This document shows, piece after piece, positions 9,146 through 25,022 of a stretch of DNA of 43,338 nt. This DNA comes from a bacterium (GTDB taxonomy: Bacteria; Patescibacteriota; Saccharimonadia; Saccharimonadales; Saccharimonadaceae). The stretch's first letter is position 1; each line of letters begins with the position of its first letter. The DNA lies in contig JAUIGB010000006.1 of NCBI GenBank assembly GCA_030429975.1, forward strand, positions 1 through 43,338, in the 5' to 3' direction. The notes beneath the pieces were generated by a model that worked only from the letters and a program-made list of their open reading frames with translations, ran no database searches and was not told where the DNA came from. The position numbers and the translations under genes were made by a program.

Positions 9146-10396
9146 ATGAATATCTATTTTTGCGGAATTGGCGGCGTAGGAATCGGTCCATTAGCCGAGA
9201 TAGCATTTGATGCCGGCCACAATGTCTGGGGGTCTGACAAAAACGAAGGCATGGTTACGAAGCTACTAGAGGCCAGGGGTATCTCTGTCAGTTATGATCA
9301 GTCTGGTGACAACTTGCGCGCTATAAACGAACAACACCCTATCGATTGGTTCGTGTACACGGCAGGCATCACAGAAGAACATCCAGAACTAGTGACGGCA
9401 CTGTCAATGGGCATCAGAACATCCAAGCGCGATGAATTACTCAGCGAAATAGTCGAGCAAAAAGGCCTAAAATTGATAGGCATCACTGGAACCCACGGTA
9501 AAACCACTACCACTGCCATGATGATATGGACACTCAAACAATTGGGTATTCCTATTAGCTATTCTGTAGGCGCAACTATGCAGTTCGGACCTAGCGGCCA
9601 CTTTGATCCCGACAGCGAATATTTTGTATATGAATGCGACGAGTTCGATCGCAACTTCCTAAAGTTTCACCCGTATCTTTCAATAATTACTTCGATAGAT
9701 TACGACCATCCCGATATCTACGATTCATCCGAAGATTACACGAGAGCTTTTCGAAAATTCATCGACCAAAGCGCATGGACAATATTGTGGCGCAGTGATG
9801 CCGACAAGGTTGGTGATGTCAAAAACGGTTGGGTACTGGGTAATCATGATTCGGCGGATATCAGACTGGCGGGCCAACACAACCGCGACAACGCTAGCCA
9901 AGTCATAAAAGCTATCGAACGACTCGGTATCAAGGGCGATGCCGTCACCGCAATAAACAAGTTTCCCGGGGCAAACAGACGCTTCGAAAAGCTTGCAAAC
10001 AACCTGTACACCGATTACGGACATCATCCTATAGAGGTAGAGGCGACTTTGCAAATGGCAAAAGAAGTCGCGGAAAAGGTCGTGCTTGTTTATCAGCCCC
10101 ACCAAAACGTTCGCCAACACGAACTGCGCTCTCACTATACAAATTGCTTCGAACAGGCCGACAAAATATACTGGCTACCAACATATTTAACTCGCGAGGA
10201 TCCGGAATTACCCGTTCTGACCCCCAGTGACCTGATTGAAAACGTCACGAACAAGGATGACGTAATCATATCAGAGCTCGACGACAACCTGTGGCGTCAA
10301 ATCCAATCAGAGATTGATAATGGATCACTCGTGCTGGTTATGGGCGCCGGTTCAATCGATGACTGGGTTCGCAAGGAACTACGACAAAAAGCCTAG
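9146..10396 (+). CDS. murC: UDP-N-acetylmuramate--L-alanine ligase
   Basis: MurC adds L-alanine to UDP-MurNAc with ATP, the first peptide step of cytoplasmic peptidoglycan precursor synthesis. The 416-aa protein has GIGGVGIGPLAE at the N-terminus, the P-loop GITGTHGKTTTT, the central CDEFDRNFL segment (Mur ligase Glu/Asp region), DYDHPDIY, and C-terminal GHHPIEVEAT and YQPHQNVR. These fit MurC (or the close Mpl) and not MurD/E/F. ATG 9146 is chosen over a TTG 9 nt earlier because the -10 overlaps that TTG. It is slightly shorter than typical MurC (about 450-490 aa). It overlaps the convergent MazG gene by 4 bp. Confidence 0.9.
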   Translation: MNIYFCGIGGVGIGPLAEIAFDAGHNVWGSDKNEGMVTKLLEARGISVSYDQSGDNLRAINEQHPIDWFVYTAGITEEHPELVTALSMGIRTSKRDELLSEIVEQKGLKLIGITGTHGKTTTTAMMIWTLKQLGIPISYSVGATMQFGPSGHFDPDSEYFVYECDEFDRNFLKFHPYLSIITSIDYDHPDIYDSSEDYTRAFRKFIDQSAWTILWRSDADKVGDVKNGWVLGNHDSADIRLAGQHNRDNASQVIKAIERLGIKGDAVTAINKFPGANRRFEKLANNLYTDYGHHPIEVEATLQMAKEVAEKVVLVYQPHQNVRQHELRSHYTNCFEQADKIYWLPTYLTREDPELPVLTPSDLIENVTNKDDVIISELDDNLWRQIQSEIDNGSLVLVMGAGSIDDWVRKELRQKA

Positions 10397-10734
10397 CGAT
10401 TATCACCGCTACCGTGTAGCTTGCCTCTTTGTTGACGACTAGCTAGTTTATCTATATTTGCTTGGGCTACATCCTCTAGCGAGTAGCCAAGTAGATGTGA
10501 AACAGCGTTAACATACCAAAGCACGTCGCCAAGCTCCTTCATGATTTCTTTTTTATCTTCATCACTTAGGACACCTTGTTTATCACGCAATAGTTTTTTA
10601 AATTTACCCAGAACCTCTCCGCTCTCATCAGATAATCCCAAAATCTGACCCATCATTTGCGAGGTAATGTCGCCGTAGTCATACTGTGTTGTTAGTGTTG
10701 TTATAGCGCGCTTCGAATACTCATCAATATTCAT
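10393..10734 (-). CDS. MazG-like nucleotide pyrophosphohydrolase (MazG-I)
   Basis: This 113-aa all-alpha NTP-PPase carries the MazG metal-binding pattern: GLSDESGEVLGKFKK followed by EIMKELGDVLWYV. Such enzymes cleave (d)NTPs, including damaged ones and possibly ppGpp, to NMP and PPi. The start is ATG 10734 with SD AGGAGGG 5 nt upstream. It follows the wHTH-Nudix gene (30-bp gap), so it is probably the second gene of that operon. A second, different MazG-like gene (11525) starts the divergent operon. Confidence 0.88.
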   Translation of the reverse strand: MNIDEYSKRAITTLTTQYDYGDITSQMMGQILGLSDESGEVLGKFKKLLRDKQGVLSDEDKKEIMKELGDVLWYVNAVSHLLGYSLEDVAQANIDKLASRQQRGKLHGSGDNR

Positions 10735-10763
10735 GTCAGCCCTCCTGTTAGTTCTATCTAATA

Positions 10764-11435
10764 CTAACAATTGTGTTCGAATTCCTCAAAATAAAAGGGG
10801 TCACGAAAAAAAGTTCGGGTCATAATTTGTTCGACGCCGGGTGCCAAGTCCAATTGCATCAGTTTGTGCGGACGCATCCACTGCGTATGTTCGTTCGTCT
10901 CTATATTATCGCGATAAAAGGCGAACACATGGGCAAGCGTCAAGATAACCTGCTCGCCGTTCTGCGTAACACGAATATAGCAGTCACCGGCATGGCGCAT
11001 TTCTTGATCTACCACCCCCAATTTCTCCCGTGCCTCGCGCCGAGCAGCCATGTGCACATTGGCGTCATCATTGTGCAGCTTGCCGTTTGGCAGGTTCCAA
11101 CTGTCAATAAATGGTTGTTTCGTTCGTCGTTGCAACAAGATGTCGCCCTCACTGTTTTGGATGACGAACATGGTCACTATCTTTGGCTGATTTCTGACGA
11201 ATAGCTTATCTTCGTTTACTCTATCGACATAAATCAGTCCGGCAACATCAAGAGTATAGCCATCGTCAACCTTTTTGACCATCCCGCCTTTTAGTAGCTG
11301 GGTCAGATGATAGCTATATAAATTCGTGTCTACGCGAGGCGGTCGCATATCACGAAATCGAGCAGTTTTTTGATGCATCAATGTGCTCAAAATATTTTTT
11401 TGTATATTGTGTTTTACTACTGTTTGATCAATCAT
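10764..11435 (-). CDS. wHTH-Nudix protein (paralogue 1)
   Basis: This 223-aa two-domain protein has a winged-helix N-terminus at about 1-70 (helical segment, TNLYSYHLTQLLKGGMVKKV, then a beta wing) and a Nudix domain at about 80-200. The Nudix box GKLHNDDANVHMAARREAR runs on as EKLGV; it departs from GX5EX7REUXEEXGU at the first Glu (Asp) and has E-K in place of the second E-E. Activity may be altered, or the domain may act as a ligand sensor. The order is opposite to NrtR (Nudix then wHTH). The palindrome TTGAGTCAA sits 2 nt before the ATG, over the expected transcription start, which suggests autoregulation. The paralogue is at 24312. Confidence 0.85.
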   Translation of the reverse strand: MIDQTVVKHNIQKNILSTLMHQKTARFRDMRPPRVDTNLYSYHLTQLLKGGMVKKVDDGYTLDVAGLIYVDRVNEDKLFVRNQPKIVTMFVIQNSEGDILLQRRTKQPFIDSWNLPNGKLHNDDANVHMAARREAREKLGVVDQEMRHAGDCYIRVTQNGEQVILTLAHVFAFYRDNIETNEHTQWMRPHKLMQLDLAPGVEQIMTRTFFRDPFYFEEFEHNC

Positions 11436-11437
11436 TT

Positions 11438-11446
11438 TTGACTCAA
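11438..11446. promoter_or_regulatory. Candidate operator TTGACTCAA in the divergent promoter region
   Basis: A 9-bp palindrome lies between the -10 (TATATT on the minus strand) and the ATG of the wHTH-Nudix gene, facing the MazG-aaRS-CYTH operon. The same 9-mer occurs twice upstream of the second wHTH-Nudix gene (24196, 24226). A shared binding site for these two regulators is inferred. Confidence 0.5.
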
Positions 11447-11524
11447 AATATACTGTCTAGATGTTTATATGGTATCACGTTACGATGAAAATGTGATAGA
11501 AATCCACACGGAAAGGAATAGGGT

Positions 11525-11797
11525 TTGGCAAAGGAAAAACAACCAACAAATATTGGGTATCATCTGACCGAGATCCCCAAAGGCCAAGTGGGAGAATCTA
11601 GCAAAATATTGGAGGAGGTATTAGAGCTACAGGACGCCGAACAACAAGACGCGAAAATCATGCAACTAGTTGAACTTTCGGACATAATCGGTTCAATCGC
11701 CCTATACATGGAAAAGCACCATCCATCGACCACGATTGACGACTTAATAATAATGGCGCGTATAACGAGGAGGGCTTTTGAAAATGGCAGACGTTAA
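11525..11797 (+). CDS. MazG-like protein (MazG-II)
   Basis: This 90-aa protein has the phage/archaeal-type MazG-like pattern: an ESSKILEEVLELQDAEQQD helix carrying E-E-x-x-E and then ELSDIIGSI. A short NTP pyrophosphohydrolase is inferred; family members bind Mg through these acids. The start is TTG with AAAGGA about 8 nt upstream; no alternative ATG precedes the conserved part. It is the first gene of a three-gene operon and overlaps the next gene by 14 bp. Confidence 0.8.
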   Translation: MAKEKQPTNIGYHLTEIPKGQVGESSKILEEVLELQDAEQQDAKIMQLVELSDIIGSIALYMEKHHPSTTIDDLIIMARITRRAFENGRR

Positions 11798-12371
11798 AAA
11801 CCATAGGCCTCAATTTATAGATTATCGTAAGATTTCGGAGGCATTAGACTACTATGAATCTCGGGGATACGAGTACATGGAGGTGCCTTGGGTTATTGAC
11901 CATAAATCTACCGAGATAACATTACCAGCAGGCCGTGAAGCTACTGCACTACAATATGGTGATTTGGTCGGCAGTGCCGAGCAGAGCTTCATCGAACTAA
12001 TGCGTCGTGGCGAAACTATACTAAAAGCCTGCGCTGTTACCCCGTGTTTTCGTATCGAGGATAGTTATGATGACCTACACTATCCGTACTTTTTAAAATG
12101 CGAGTTAATTGATACTGATGCAACCGACGAGAACTTGCACCAAATGATAGACGACGCCAGTGCTTTCTTTTCGCAGTATACAGAGGTCGATATAGAGGAA
12201 ACAGAGCCTGACGCATACGATATAGTCGACCGCAAAATGCGAATAGAGTTGGGCTCATACGGTATCCGTAACTGTGAGGGTAAGCGGTTCATATACGGGA
12301 CCGGCGTTGCACTACCTCGTCTGACTTCAGTTCTAGAAAGAAATCGTGATAATATACAGGTTAATACATGA
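11784..12371 (+). CDS. Stand-alone class II aminoacyl-tRNA-synthetase-like catalytic core
   Basis: This 195-aa protein looks like a bare class II aaRS core. LVGSAEQSFIELM (61-73) matches the 'TxE' substrate loop of Ser/Thr/ProRS; AVTPCFRIE (84-92) and the following HYPYFLKCELI match motif 2 (fRxE ... F); YGTGVALPRLTSVLER (171-186) matches motif 3 (G-x-G ... R). There is no anticodon-binding or editing domain and no motif-1 dimer interface that I can see. Such orphan cores (HisZ, AsnA, PoxA, BirA-like) make aminoacyl or acyl adenylates for uses other than translation. ATG 11784 has GAGGAGGG upstream. It overlaps the next gene as ATGA. Confidence 0.72.
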   Translation: MADVKNHRPQFIDYRKISEALDYYESRGYEYMEVPWVIDHKSTEITLPAGREATALQYGDLVGSAEQSFIELMRRGETILKACAVTPCFRIEDSYDDLHYPYFLKCELIDTDATDENLHQMIDDASAFFSQYTEVDIEETEPDAYDIVDRKMRIELGSYGIRNCEGKRFIYGTGVALPRLTSVLERNRDNIQVNT

Positions 12372-13546
12372 CAGAAAAAACACCACACATCGATGATTAT
12401 GTTCATGATGACTATGCCCAAATCGAGAGAAAATACATTCCAGACAGCGATGCCCGTGATCTGTTGAATGATACTTTTACAGATAATCGTACGCGCATAA
12501 CCCAACTGCAACTGAGTCATACTTCGGAACCATACAATTTATGTATGCGCAAACATACCCCCGAGGGTAAACCACCGGATTTTCGCGTAGAAATAAAAAA
12601 CGTGGGAATGATGAGCGAAGATGGGTGGCGACGTATGCAGATACCGGCCGACATAGACCGAGAGCTTTTTGAACAGTACGAGGATCAAGATGTTCCAGTC
12701 GTTAAAAAATGGCGCGCATATCCGCTAGACAACCGTGATGTACATATTGATTTCTTTGACAACGGACACGTCCACGCCAAAAGCCGCAATCCCAAATCCT
12801 GGACACAATTCATTCGTTCGTACGATCTGTCAGAAAACTTTGCAGATATCACTGGTAATCCCCTTTCCAGTAGCGAATGGTACGCGCATAACGATTACAA
12901 GCGAAGCCATGGTGGACGCGAGATATTGGCGCCACGCACCAATCCGTCGGTTGACCATGCTATATCTGAAATACATGCATGGCGCTCTATACATAATGAA
13001 AAGCCTATCATACAAGTTAGTGGCAGATCTGGATCGGGCAAAACGTATTTTGCACATCTAATAAAGCAAGAATTGTCGAATGGCAGTAATCCACTACAAG
13101 CAATAGTGCTATCAACCGACGAATATAATCGAGGGCGCACCGAGCTCTACAAGCGTGGCGGTGGAACCTGGCATAATTACGATGCCGACGAAGTATGGGA
13201 CACGCTTGAATTTGGGCACGACATGCAGCGATTGCGTTCCGGAGAATCAATCCCCAAAATATATTTTAACTATGATACCGAGGAAAGAGAGATAGTTGGC
13301 ACGATTAATCCAGATGAATATGACGTTATTGTTTACGAGGGCGTAAAATCCCACAGCCCCGATCTGCATGGACTAGCCGACCTGACCTACGAGGTCCCGA
13401 CGCCACTGGCAACATCGCTCGGCCGACGTATTGTGCGCGACCTTATGACCCGCCCGCGTTTTGCGGATCCAAAAGCAAATCTAACTTATTATCTTACATA
13501 CGCCGAGCCTGAATATAGCAGACTATACCTACCTAGCTCCAGTTAA
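12368..13546 (+). CDS. CYTH (triphosphate tunnel) - uridine-kinase-like fusion
   Basis: This 392-aa fusion has an N-terminal CYTH domain at about 15-145: it opens with QIERKY (the ExExK signature with Gln first), then alternating basic and acidic strands and KKWRAYPL...HIDFF. The C-terminal P-loop kinase at about 210-390 has IIQVSGRSGSGKT (Walker A), VLSTDEYNRG as in uridine kinase/PRK, and DVIVYEG. CYTH enzymes hydrolyse triphosphates or act as adenylate cyclase or thiamine triphosphatase. Plant TTM1/2 carry the same two domains in the opposite order. Translation is coupled (ATGA) to the aaRS-like gene. The substrate is unknown. Confidence 0.8.
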   Translation: MTEKTPHIDDYVHDDYAQIERKYIPDSDARDLLNDTFTDNRTRITQLQLSHTSEPYNLCMRKHTPEGKPPDFRVEIKNVGMMSEDGWRRMQIPADIDRELFEQYEDQDVPVVKKWRAYPLDNRDVHIDFFDNGHVHAKSRNPKSWTQFIRSYDLSENFADITGNPLSSSEWYAHNDYKRSHGGREILAPRTNPSVDHAISEIHAWRSIHNEKPIIQVSGRSGSGKTYFAHLIKQELSNGSNPLQAIVLSTDEYNRGRTELYKRGGGTWHNYDADEVWDTLEFGHDMQRLRSGESIPKIYFNYDTEEREIVGTINPDEYDVIVYEGVKSHSPDLHGLADLTYEVPTPLATSLGRRIVRDLMTRPRFADPKANLTYYLTYAEPEYSRLYLPSSS

Positions 13547-22694: not shown

Positions 22695-24059
22695 CTATCG
22701 TCGGCGTCTCGTTGACCTAGCCGCCCTAACCGCTTCTTCTTTTGCGTCTTGTTCTAGTTCGCGTGCATCTATTGTCTCGCCGTTATAGCGCAACACGCCA
22801 CCTTGAATATCTACTTGCTGGAATTCGTAATCACCGTCGCCGTAGTCACGGATGACCATGACACCGTTCGTCCAGTTTTCAGAATACCTATATGGACGGT
22901 TTTTCTCATTGATTGCCGAGTGGAAGCTCGGTACGTTACCGTTTAGGTTACACAGCGCGCCACAAACATATGCGCCAAGCTGTTTGCCTCGTCGATCACG
23001 ATGTAATTGCATTTCAGCCTTGTGCGTATGGCCCTGAACAACGTTACGGTCCTGATTGTGCGGGTGATTAGCCAGCCATACCGCGGTACCGCCACGACCA
23101 GATGATTTAGTGCCGTGGAAAAAGGCTAGGTCTTCGCGTGCATAATGATCTTCATCCTCTGGCTGCTGAAAATCTTCCATGCTGCCGTTGTATCGGAACG
23201 TAGCCTCACCATATCCGCCAACGAAATCCCATCCAAAGTTCTTGTCATTCATCCCTATCATGCCAGGATATGACAGCTGTGAATGTTGTGTTTTACCGAC
23301 ACGAACATTGTACAACTCTGGTGCGTTTTTCAACATGTACTTATCCCAACGTTCAGAGTGATTTGAATCCAGGATTATACGTCGTTGTGCATGAGGAGTT
23401 GCGTCACGCAGATCCATATAGAATTGCTGTGTTCGTTCTAGTGATGGACCTAGGGTTCCATGGAAGTGATCCGCGTCGGCACCAAATCGGCTCATTTCTG
23501 CCAAATCAGTGGTATCGCCTAGGTCTATTACTACATCGGGCTTCACGTGCGCCGCCAAGGCAACTGCGGCCCTCATAGCATCTTCGTCGTGAAGTGTTAG
23601 AACTTCACCATCTTCTAGTCGACGATAGCCAATCTGAGCATCACCTACTACGAATAATAGGTTGTGATCGCGCTTGACTGGTTTTAGTTTTCTTCGATTT
23701 GGTTTTGGTACATCTAGGGGCTGTACTATTAGGTCGCTCAATGTCTTTTTAGGGCGAGTTTTGGTAGAGATTTTTCGTAGGTTAACCGTATGCGCAACAC
23801 CATCGTTATCCTTATAAAAACCCTGGTAGTCATTTCGGATCGAGCTAACAACCTCTTCGCGCTCTGGATCATGCCGAGAAACAATCGCATCCGCAGAGTC
23901 ATAGATTTCACTTAATTCCGCTTCGCCCATGTGGCGGTCATATTCGTGATCCGCATGAAAGGTTCGCTCTGCGGCCCTAGCCTCGTCTTCAGTAAAGTCG
24001 CTACCCTCTCCGCTATTTTTTACTACTGTTGTTTTTGATTCTGGTGATTTTCTCGGCAT
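22695..24059 (-). CDS. Phage-like calcineurin-type metallophosphoesterase
   Basis: This 454-aa protein has a 130-residue polar N-terminal extension followed by a metallophosphoesterase fold: VVGDAQIGY (in place of D-x-H), VIDLGDTTDL, DSNHSERW (GNH-E equivalent), FFHGTKSS and VQGHTHKAEM. The arrangement resembles phage-encoded phosphoesterases; the basic Arg-rich C-terminus may bind nucleic acid. The first metal motif has Gln instead of His. SD GGGGGAT precedes the ATG. A 6-codon frame and a hairpin lie in its leader. Confidence 0.82.
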   Translation of the reverse strand: MPRKSPESKTTVVKNSGEGSDFTEDEARAAERTFHADHEYDRHMGEAELSEIYDSADAIVSRHDPEREEVVSSIRNDYQGFYKDNDGVAHTVNLRKISTKTRPKKTLSDLIVQPLDVPKPNRRKLKPVKRDHNLLFVVGDAQIGYRRLEDGEVLTLHDEDAMRAAVALAAHVKPDVVIDLGDTTDLAEMSRFGADADHFHGTLGPSLERTQQFYMDLRDATPHAQRRIILDSNHSERWDKYMLKNAPELYNVRVGKTQHSQLSYPGMIGMNDKNFGWDFVGGYGEATFRYNGSMEDFQQPEDEDHYAREDLAFFHGTKSSGRGGTAVWLANHPHNQDRNVVQGHTHKAEMQLHRDRRGKQLGAYVCGALCNLNGNVPSFHSAINEKNRPYRYSENWTNGVMVIRDYGDGDYEFQQVDIQGGVLRYNGETIDARELEQDAKEEAVRAARSTRRRR

Positions 24060-24088
24060 CTTATCCCCCTATGTTTATACATAATTTA

Positions 24089-24162
24089 TGGCCACCCTCT
24101 ACTGTGGTGGCCACCCTATCCTATTTTTACCTTCATATGCACTCCCTTTTAATGTAATTATA
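24089..24162 (-). promoter_or_regulatory. Leader of the metallophosphoesterase: -10, mini-ORF and hairpin
   Basis: On the minus strand: TATAAT (24162-24157), SD AAGGGAG, a mini-frame of six codons plus stop (24136-24116; M-K-V-K-I-G), then an 8-bp hairpin TGGCCACC/GGTGGCCA (24089-24113), then the SD and ATG of the main gene. This looks like a leader-peptide/attenuator arrangement. Confidence 0.4.
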
Positions 24163-24195
24163 AGTATTCAATTTATGCTTTTCAGCCACATAGTG

Positions 24196-24270
24196 TTGAC
24201 TCAATAGCAATTGACTCGCCTATGCTTGACTCAAATTGGGTTGACTTGTGACACTTTCGCAACTTATAAT
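24196..24270 (+). promoter_or_regulatory. Four 15-bp direct repeats forming the promoter of the second wHTH-Nudix gene
   Basis: TTGACT starts at 24196, 24211, 24226 and 24241, an exact 15-bp period. Units 1 and 3 are the full palindrome TTGACTCAA, unit 2 is TTGACTCGC and unit 4 TTGACTTGT. Unit 4 is also the -35 of a promoter with an 18-bp spacer and TATAAT (24265-24270). The array reads as regulator sites overlapping a promoter. Confidence 0.75.
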
Positions 24271-24311: not shown

Positions 24312-25022
24312 ATGCACTATATCCAAAAAGGTATCATTCAAAAGCTAGCTAGGCTCGCCCCCCAACGATTCTCAGACCTTCAACCAGACGATGTACCGAA
24401 CAATACTTTTTCGTATCATTTAAAGAAATTATCCCAAGCTGGCTACGTAGAGCTAACGGATGGAGGTTATGTTGCCACGCGAAAGGCCATGAAGTCCATC
24501 CAGTATGCAGCTGATGGCGACAAAAAGACCCGTGTTCCTATTTTTATTACCGCTATATACGTTACTAACACTGATGATGAAGTCCTGTTAATCGAACGTA
24601 ACAAACAACCATTCGTGGGCTGGTGTGGCATACCGGCAGGCCTCATACACCAAGGCGAGCATATGCACGACGCTGCTAGACGTGAATTGATGGAGAAAAC
24701 GTCCATAAAGGCACCCAGCCTAAAATTCGCCGGGGTGCTCGATTTCCAATACCTCGAGCAAATCAGTGGTGACCTTTTCGTACACACCGTGGCATTTATA
24801 TACTCATACAAATTGCCAGGTGACGGCAAACAACTTGCTGGCCACACTACGAGATATGGAAAACTTTTGTGGTCAAAACTAGATCATGCTCATATCCTTC
24901 CAGAGGTGGAAACCGTAAAGGATTTGGTAAAAAATTCTACTCCATCAGTTGAATCTGTTAACTACGATGAGCCAACCATTAGTACTCAAACTAAAGAGAG
25001 TCAGCGTTTTTTAAGGAAATAG
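24312..25022 (+). CDS. wHTH-Nudix protein (paralogue 2)
   Basis: This 236-aa protein has the same build as the gene at 10764: winged helix at about 1-65 (PNNTFSYHLKKLSQAGYVEL and a wing DGGYVATRKA) and Nudix at about 75-200. The Nudix box GLIHQGEHMHDAARRELMEK keeps the first Glu but, like paralogue 1, has E-K and then T-S-I for the usual E-E-x-G-U. A regulator sensing a nucleotide-type ligand is inferred. The start ATG has GAGGGAG 12 nt upstream. The promoter carries four TTGACT repeats of 15 bp. It overlaps corA tail to tail by 22 bp. Confidence 0.85.
   Translation: MHYIQKGIIQKLARLAPQRFSDLQPDDVPNNTFSYHLKKLSQAGYVELTDGGYVATRKAMKSIQYAADGDKKTRVPIFITAIYVTNTDDEVLLIERNKQPFVGWCGIPAGLIHQGEHMHDAARRELMEKTSIKAPSLKFAGVLDFQYLEQISGDLFVHTVAFIYSYKLPGDGKQLAGHTTRYGKLLWSKLDHAHILPEVETVKDLVKNSTPSVESVNYDEPTISTQTKESQRFLRK

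Follow-up and report, generated by a model that had tools for sequence, protein, structure and literature searches.

The wHTH-Nudix loci and the array upstream of N1

We analysed a window of 43,338 nucleotides (one whole contig stretch of a Saccharimonadaceae genome), in which two genes, N1 and N2, encode proteins with an N-terminal winged-helix domain (wHTH) and a C-terminal Nudix domain. At the N1 locus the following features are found:

22695 to 24059, minus strand: phage-type metallophosphoesterase gene, divergent from N1 (PHROG 20266, 3e-40)
24157 to 24185, minus strand: possible divergent promoter of the metallophosphoesterase gene, CTGAAA-17-TATAAT (10/12 matches)
24196 to 24204, plus strand: putative operator unit 1, perfect 9-bp palindrome TTGACTCAA, kept in relatives
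24211 to 24219, plus strand: putative operator unit 2, TTGACTCGC, 7/9
24226 to 24234, plus strand: putative operator unit 3, perfect TTGACTCAA
24241 to 24246, plus strand: half-site TTGACT of unit 4, also the -35 hexamer (promoter scan); the full unit reads TTGACTTGT
24265 to 24270, plus strand: -10 hexamer TATAAT, with an 18-bp spacer from unit 4 (promoter scan)
24312 to 25022, plus strand: N1, wHTH-Nudix regulator of 236 aa, Nudix box ending RELMEKTSI (Pfam NUDIX 3.2e-15; alignment)

The N2 locus contains a single site:

10393 to 10770, minus strand: gene of a MazG-type pyrophosphohydrolase, overlapping the end of N2 (Pfam MazG 1.9e-10)
10764 to 11435, minus strand: N2, wHTH-Nudix regulator of 223 aa, Nudix box ending REAREKLGV (Pfam NUDIX 1.1e-13)
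11438 to 11446, minus strand: single putative operator, TTGAGTCAA, kept in 41/41 relatives
11447 to 11452, minus strand: -10-like TATATT abutting the operator (consensus in relatives TAGAAAGTATAAT-TTGASTCAA-ATATG)
11525 to 13546, plus strand: cluster divergent from N2, with a small phage-family ORF (PHROG 6408), a HisRS-like ORF (PHROG 4806) and a uridine-kinase protein

The first-pass annotation had described four TTGACT units upstream of N1 in an exact 15-bp period, two of them palindromic and the last doubling as the -35 box, directly before a TATAAT and a wHTH-Nudix gene. The window sequence bears this out. The units start at 24196, 24211, 24226 and 24241, the palindromic ones are units 1 and 3, the last TTGACT with its TATAAT gives 11/12 matches in the promoter consensus scan, and the ATG follows at 24312. 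The best score for four units at a 15-bp period is 31/36, a value that no sequence among 300 dinucleotide shuffles attains, and no other period from 10 to 21 scores as well. The segment TCAGCCAC just upstream of the array is kept in N1 relatives and overlaps the -35 of the possible divergent promoter, so that the array stands between two promoters. A phage-type metallophosphoesterase also lies beside the N1-type gene in G002, G077, G096 and G116. In the leader of this divergent gene, GGGTGGCCA is found twice on the minus strand (24085 to 24120), and one copy is visible in L017.

At N2, whose ATG is at 11435 on the minus strand, the putative operator begins 11 bp before the start codon, and the MazG-type gene is a probable operon partner. 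The uridine-kinase protein on the divergent side falls in the homology cluster of CYTH-uridine kinases. Between it and N2 (11525 to 12371) lie the small PHROG 6408 ORF and the stand-alone HisRS-like ORF of PHROG 4806, both families known from phages. The TTGACT at 11438 was also considered as a -35 for the divergent gene at 11525 and was rejected, as there is no -10 at the proper distance. It had been claimed that the 9-mer occurs in the promoter of the only other wHTH-Nudix gene. The promoter site is real, and "only other" holds for the window alone: a third, distant wHTH-Nudix gene lies elsewhere in the genome, on contig C37 at about 24267, and is without the 9-mer.

Rarity and conservation of the site

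Genome-wide counts reveal a rare 9-mer tied to particular promoters, rather than a frequent word with no link to them. The exact TTGACTCAA occurs six times in the whole genome (1,018,513 bases, 38 contigs), three times at the promoters of the two wHTH-Nudix genes and three times within ORFs, while TTGACT-N9-TTGACT is found in the N1 array only. Counting sites with up to one mismatch gives no enrichment in the window (11 matches, 10.8 expected); the signal therefore lies in the exact sites and their register. Ten genomes of the genus together hold 66 sites, and the reversed pattern occurs 37 times in them. Every site outside plausible ORFs lies at a wHTH-Nudix promoter, with the qualification that a few sites fall within short reading frames (61-84 aa) that are possibly not genes. 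In eight further genomes, 49 of the 56 examined sites are within ORFs of at least 100 aa; the other seven are four sites at wHTH-Nudix genes or operons, two in small ORFs and one before a HAM1/RdgB-like gene. For the latter, TTGAGTCAA stands at position 928 of L252 (G016:C5 near 354427), 68 bp upstream of a gene that resembles HAM1/RdgB-type NTP pyrophosphatases from the look of its sequence alone, and this gene is a possible extra regulon member. A shared regulon had been proposed from the two window loci. The site is indeed present at both the N1 and the N2 promoter, without a spread over many promoters, and the regulon that can be detected would essentially be the regulator's own promoter or operon, possibly with the divergent gene.

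Orthologues might have been expected to lack the site if it were not the operator of this family. It is found in all 41 named N2 relatives and, as an array, in six N1 relatives besides the window. The 41 loci were collected by a protein pattern, which makes the set independent of the DNA motif, and TTGA(C/G)TCAA lies within 90 bp upstream in every one of them. A broad protein alignment showed no conserved upstream word; the narrower one gave the site. These relatives are mostly labelled Candidatus Saccharibacteria, with two Nomurabacteria and some named only Patescibacteria or bacterium. By our start calls the site is at exactly -11 in 36/41, mostly directly after a TATAAT-like -10; a -10-like sequence precedes it and the start codon follows. 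An alignment anchored on the site (40 relatives and the window) has the consensus ATAGAAAGTATAAT-TTGASTCAA-ATATG. At the centre of the site 29 sequences have G and 12 have C, none has A or T, and the other eight bases are invariant.

Since only 3 to 11 nt separate the N2 site from the AUG in 36/41 loci, one may ask whether the 9-mer acts in leaderless mRNAs, as a leader or translation-start signal, instead of being bound by a protein as DNA. We regard this as very improbable. The central base has switched between C and G at least six times on the protein tree of the N2 relatives, and because C:G read from the other strand is G:C, the palindrome is unchanged by the switch, as a symmetric protein site predicts and a one-strand signal does not. 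Furthermore, the same 9-mer is found 70-130 bp upstream in the arrays, and it is not used at other genes. The recognised sequence would then be TTGA-S-TCAA, with C or G at the centre. A dyad-symmetric site of this kind in the regulator's own promoter is what the orthologues have, in all 41 loci, with the flip at the centre and the arrays in addition.

In the N2-type upstream regions L163-L203 we also observe a second conserved block about 20-60 bp before the operator, roughly TAACAGATGACATTTTCACTATAGCGTGCTATTATGA. It includes ATGACA-17-TATTAT and the inverted repeat ATAGC-GT-GCTAT, and possibly represents a second or divergent promoter.

N1 relatives are rarer: at E 1e-30 or better they are found in 8 of the 392 genomes from the order, our own genome included. 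In seven of the eight upstream regions, again counting the window, the score for four units at 15 bp is higher than in any of the 300 shuffles, and no other period between 10 and 21 does as well. The units swap TTGACT and TTGAGT among these relatives, and unit 2 reads TTGAGTCGC in G008 and G009. In the three closest relatives (G002, G008 and G009) the last unit is 17 bp from TATACT, so that it still doubles as putative operator and -35. A blind scan of the 392 genomes for TTGASTCAA-N6-TTGAST gave 17 matches and its reversed control six; of the 17, 14 precede a wHTH-Nudix or wHTH gene or its operon, one probably does, and two are inside unrelated ORFs.

That the -35 hexamer recurs here by chance, or that the array arose by a recent tandem duplication, has next to no probability in our view. 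It is true that the unit begins with a -35 hexamer, and that the bare pair TTGACT-N9-TTGACT exceeds its control by little in 198 genomes, which makes it a poor marker, unlike the full-palindrome tandem. But the spacers vary between units, the 15-bp register is kept at 46-73% protein identity across genera, and the exchange of TTGACT and TTGAGT preserves the palindrome. Taken together, the rarity, conservation, register, dyad symmetry and gene linkage of the 9-mer strongly support its earlier description as the predicted operator of the wHTH-Nudix family.

The regulator, its gene neighbourhood and the proposed switch

Both proteins have the Nudix superfamily fold, with PF00293 at 56.8 and 51.8 bits for N1 and N2 (cut-off 21.1). 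The AlphaFold model of N2 (pLDDT 90) has its wHTH at residues 10-75 and its Nudix domain at 85-222, and the nearest structures to the Nudix half are AraR of Bacteroides thetaiotaomicron (5bs6, Z 16.3, 17% identity) and NrtR (Z 16.1). As this whole-model comparison barely tests the wHTH, a separate model of that domain was compared. It has the winged-helix fold (H10-21 H27-30 H37-49 E53-56 E59-62 H64-75, pLDDT 86), it resembles MarR-/HxlR-type winged helices, and the leading Foldseek matches are nearly all winged-helix proteins, although their E-values are weak (best 0.0024). The Pfam matches to HTH_20 and DUF7347 are below their cut-offs.

The intact hydrolase box GX5EX7REUXEEXGU is absent from both proteins, where K replaces the second E of EE. 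In MsNrtR the box is GX5EX7RQUXEKXDU, with the same EE-to-EK change and no detectable hydrolase activity (PMC6800001), and by this analogy a sensor role is supported for the wHTH-Nudix proteins. Among 64 homologues the last Glu of the box is kept by 0/24 with the motif upstream and by 18/40 without it (Fisher 3.5e-5, uncorrected for kinship). It seems likely by comparison with MsNrtR that the Nudix domain, having lost its catalytic Glu (usually to Lys), acts as a ligand sensor.

A CYTH-bearing protein is divergent from the N2-type gene in 20/41 loci by the CYTH profile, mostly as CYTH-uridine kinase fusions; the looser homology clusters 9 and 14 exceed this count, and several members of cluster 14 have only the HD part. 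Other N2-type loci have divergent YfbR-like HD proteins. Judged by gene order, MazG follows the N2-type gene in 13/41 loci, and a nucleoside deoxyribosyltransferase is found at seven of the 41. In G042 and G031 the site heads an operon where the wHTH-Nudix gene comes after a P-loop kinase gene, with a CYTH-like part next to the kinase or fused to it. At L049 and L208 the P-loop kinase genes of such site-headed operons, with CYTH-like proteins fused or adjacent, belong to AAA_28. This context of CYTH, HD, MazG, deoxyribosyltransferase and kinase genes suggests that the ligand could be of nucleotide type.

We consider it very likely, on comparative grounds, that TTGA-S-TCAA is the autoregulatory operator of a wHTH-Nudix subfamily in Saccharibacteria, which would be bound by the wHTH, with the Nudix domain sensing a ligand that relieves repression. 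Binding, repression, action as a dimer and a nucleotide-like ligand are all steps that we infer. The N-terminal domain would read the site as a symmetric unit. Bound at N2, the regulator would occupy the stretch between -10 and start codon and so keep transcription from initiating. At N1 the four operators would fill the space between the two divergent promoters, and because the last unit is the -35 box, cooperative occupancy would exclude RNA polymerase. Once the Nudix domain has bound its ligand, the DNA would be released and repression lifted. At 9 bp, with half-site centres (TTGA to TCAA) 5 bp apart, the palindrome is short for a wHTH dimer. In the array 10 bp, roughly a turn of the helix, separate the TCAA of one unit from the TTGA of the next, so that dimers could bridge units, and the lone site at N2 argues that one palindrome suffices. 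The dimer geometry may hence differ between array and single site.

The regulator might instead be an activator, or have a dual role, with dimers in the N1 array recruiting RNA polymerase from upstream of the -35, where three of the four units lie. We think this unlikely, because the best-conserved layout, that of N2, has the site in a repressor position between -10 and start codon, and unit 4 overlaps the -35.

Known systems and paralogue clades

Of the known systems, NrtR is among the closest to the proposed autorepressor. Like the wHTH-Nudix proteins, NrtR (MsNrtR included) joins a Nudix-fold sensor with a degenerate box to a winged helix, and autorepression through a palindrome is common to NrtR and, as predicted, to the proteins studied here. 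However, NrtR has the Nudix domain first and the wHTH at the C-terminus (PMC10311068), an order that is reversed in N1 and N2. The MsNrtR operator is the 23-bp GTTTTCGA-N7-TCGAAAAC (PMC6800001), in contrast to a putative operator of 9 bp with a 15-bp tandem form. The NCBIfam model of NrtR-type repressors, NF050029, gives 20.7 and 24.8 bits against a cut-off of 400. Linkage to NAD biosynthesis genes is a mark of NrtR, as is ADP-ribose or NAD as effector. Around the 41 loci the neighbours that could be named encode CYTH-kinase, HD/YfbR, MazG and deoxyribosyltransferase proteins, and no NAD genes were recognised among the annotated clusters. AraR belongs to the NrtR family and regulates sugar use (PMC4666351). 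Its Nudix domain has been converted to a sensor, as we propose for the wHTH-Nudix proteins, but it controls a sugar regulon and has an N-terminal Nudix domain (aligned chain residues 10-141), in contrast to the nucleotide-related context here. Regulators of the MarR, ArsR and HxlR types share the helix-helix-helix-strand-strand-helix N-terminal domain, in Foldseek matches that are weak (E 0.002-0.1), and differ from the wHTH-Nudix proteins by the fusion of the latter to Nudix. The system would thus be a variant of Nudix-sensor regulators that works like NrtR and is not NrtR.

The eukaryotic AP-1/Gcn4 site is TGASTCA. Its heptamer is identical to the core of the wHTH-Nudix site, but there is no bZIP protein here and the likeness is one of convergence only. 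A limited search of the open-access literature found no described transcription-factor operator in Saccharibacteria, and among the matches listed by a text search for the 9-mer none concerns bacterial regulation; they are probably primer sequences. A 9-bp site predicted jointly with its cognate regulator, register and targets, and conserved across an order, would make a rare, directly testable genetic switch in these bacteria. Binding, ligand and specificity could be addressed with short DNA and a protein of roughly 25 kDa, which offers a route to the metabolite monitored by the reduced, host-dependent Saccharibacteria cells.

The paralogues bear on the question whether the site belongs to another transcription factor that controls the wHTH-Nudix genes, with the wHTH-Nudix protein binding elsewhere or not at all. 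Such a factor would fit the absence of the 9-mer from some Lys-box paralogues. The motif is missing at several Lys-box relatives, for example L022 and L078, and at the third genomic paralogue on C37, which speaks against the main reading, and the upstream regions of the C37-type (N3) paralogues have no shared palindrome. But the site tracks the wHTH-Nudix gene across changing neighbours and genera and at two paralogues in different contexts, and it is also found at operons whose first gene is a kinase. The clade that keeps the Glu has a different recognition helix (SDHFNFHI, against SNLYSYHL) and a different upstream motif, AAGTNNACTTNNCTAG, which is present in 16/19 of this clade and 0/47 others, figures that describe rather than test the pattern since it was derived from the same sequences. 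We judge a separate factor improbable; for a regulator site with almost no other targets, binding by the regulator itself is the best explanation.

Under self-binding, AAGTNNACTTNNCTAG is a candidate second, clade-specific operator. It is conceivable, though we hold it only tentatively and would not quite bet on it, that the Saccharibacteria wHTH-Nudix proteins form an expanded family of one-component switches. Their clade-specific palindromic self-operators would be matched to the recognition helix (TTGASTCAA in the box-degenerate clade, AAGTNNACTT-NN-CTAG in the intact-box clade), they would read a nucleotide-type metabolite and control CYTH, HD and MazG enzymes, and the 15-bp arrays would be cooperative, bidirectional versions of the single switch. 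The clade-wise pairing of recognition helix and palindrome would provide a natural series for studying how winged helices read DNA. In the intact-box wHTH-Nudix genes, AAGTNNACTTNNCTAG is located 48 to 104 bp before the start (loci L033, L038-L042, L044, L081, L085, L090, L093, L095-L097, L099, L102 and L106).
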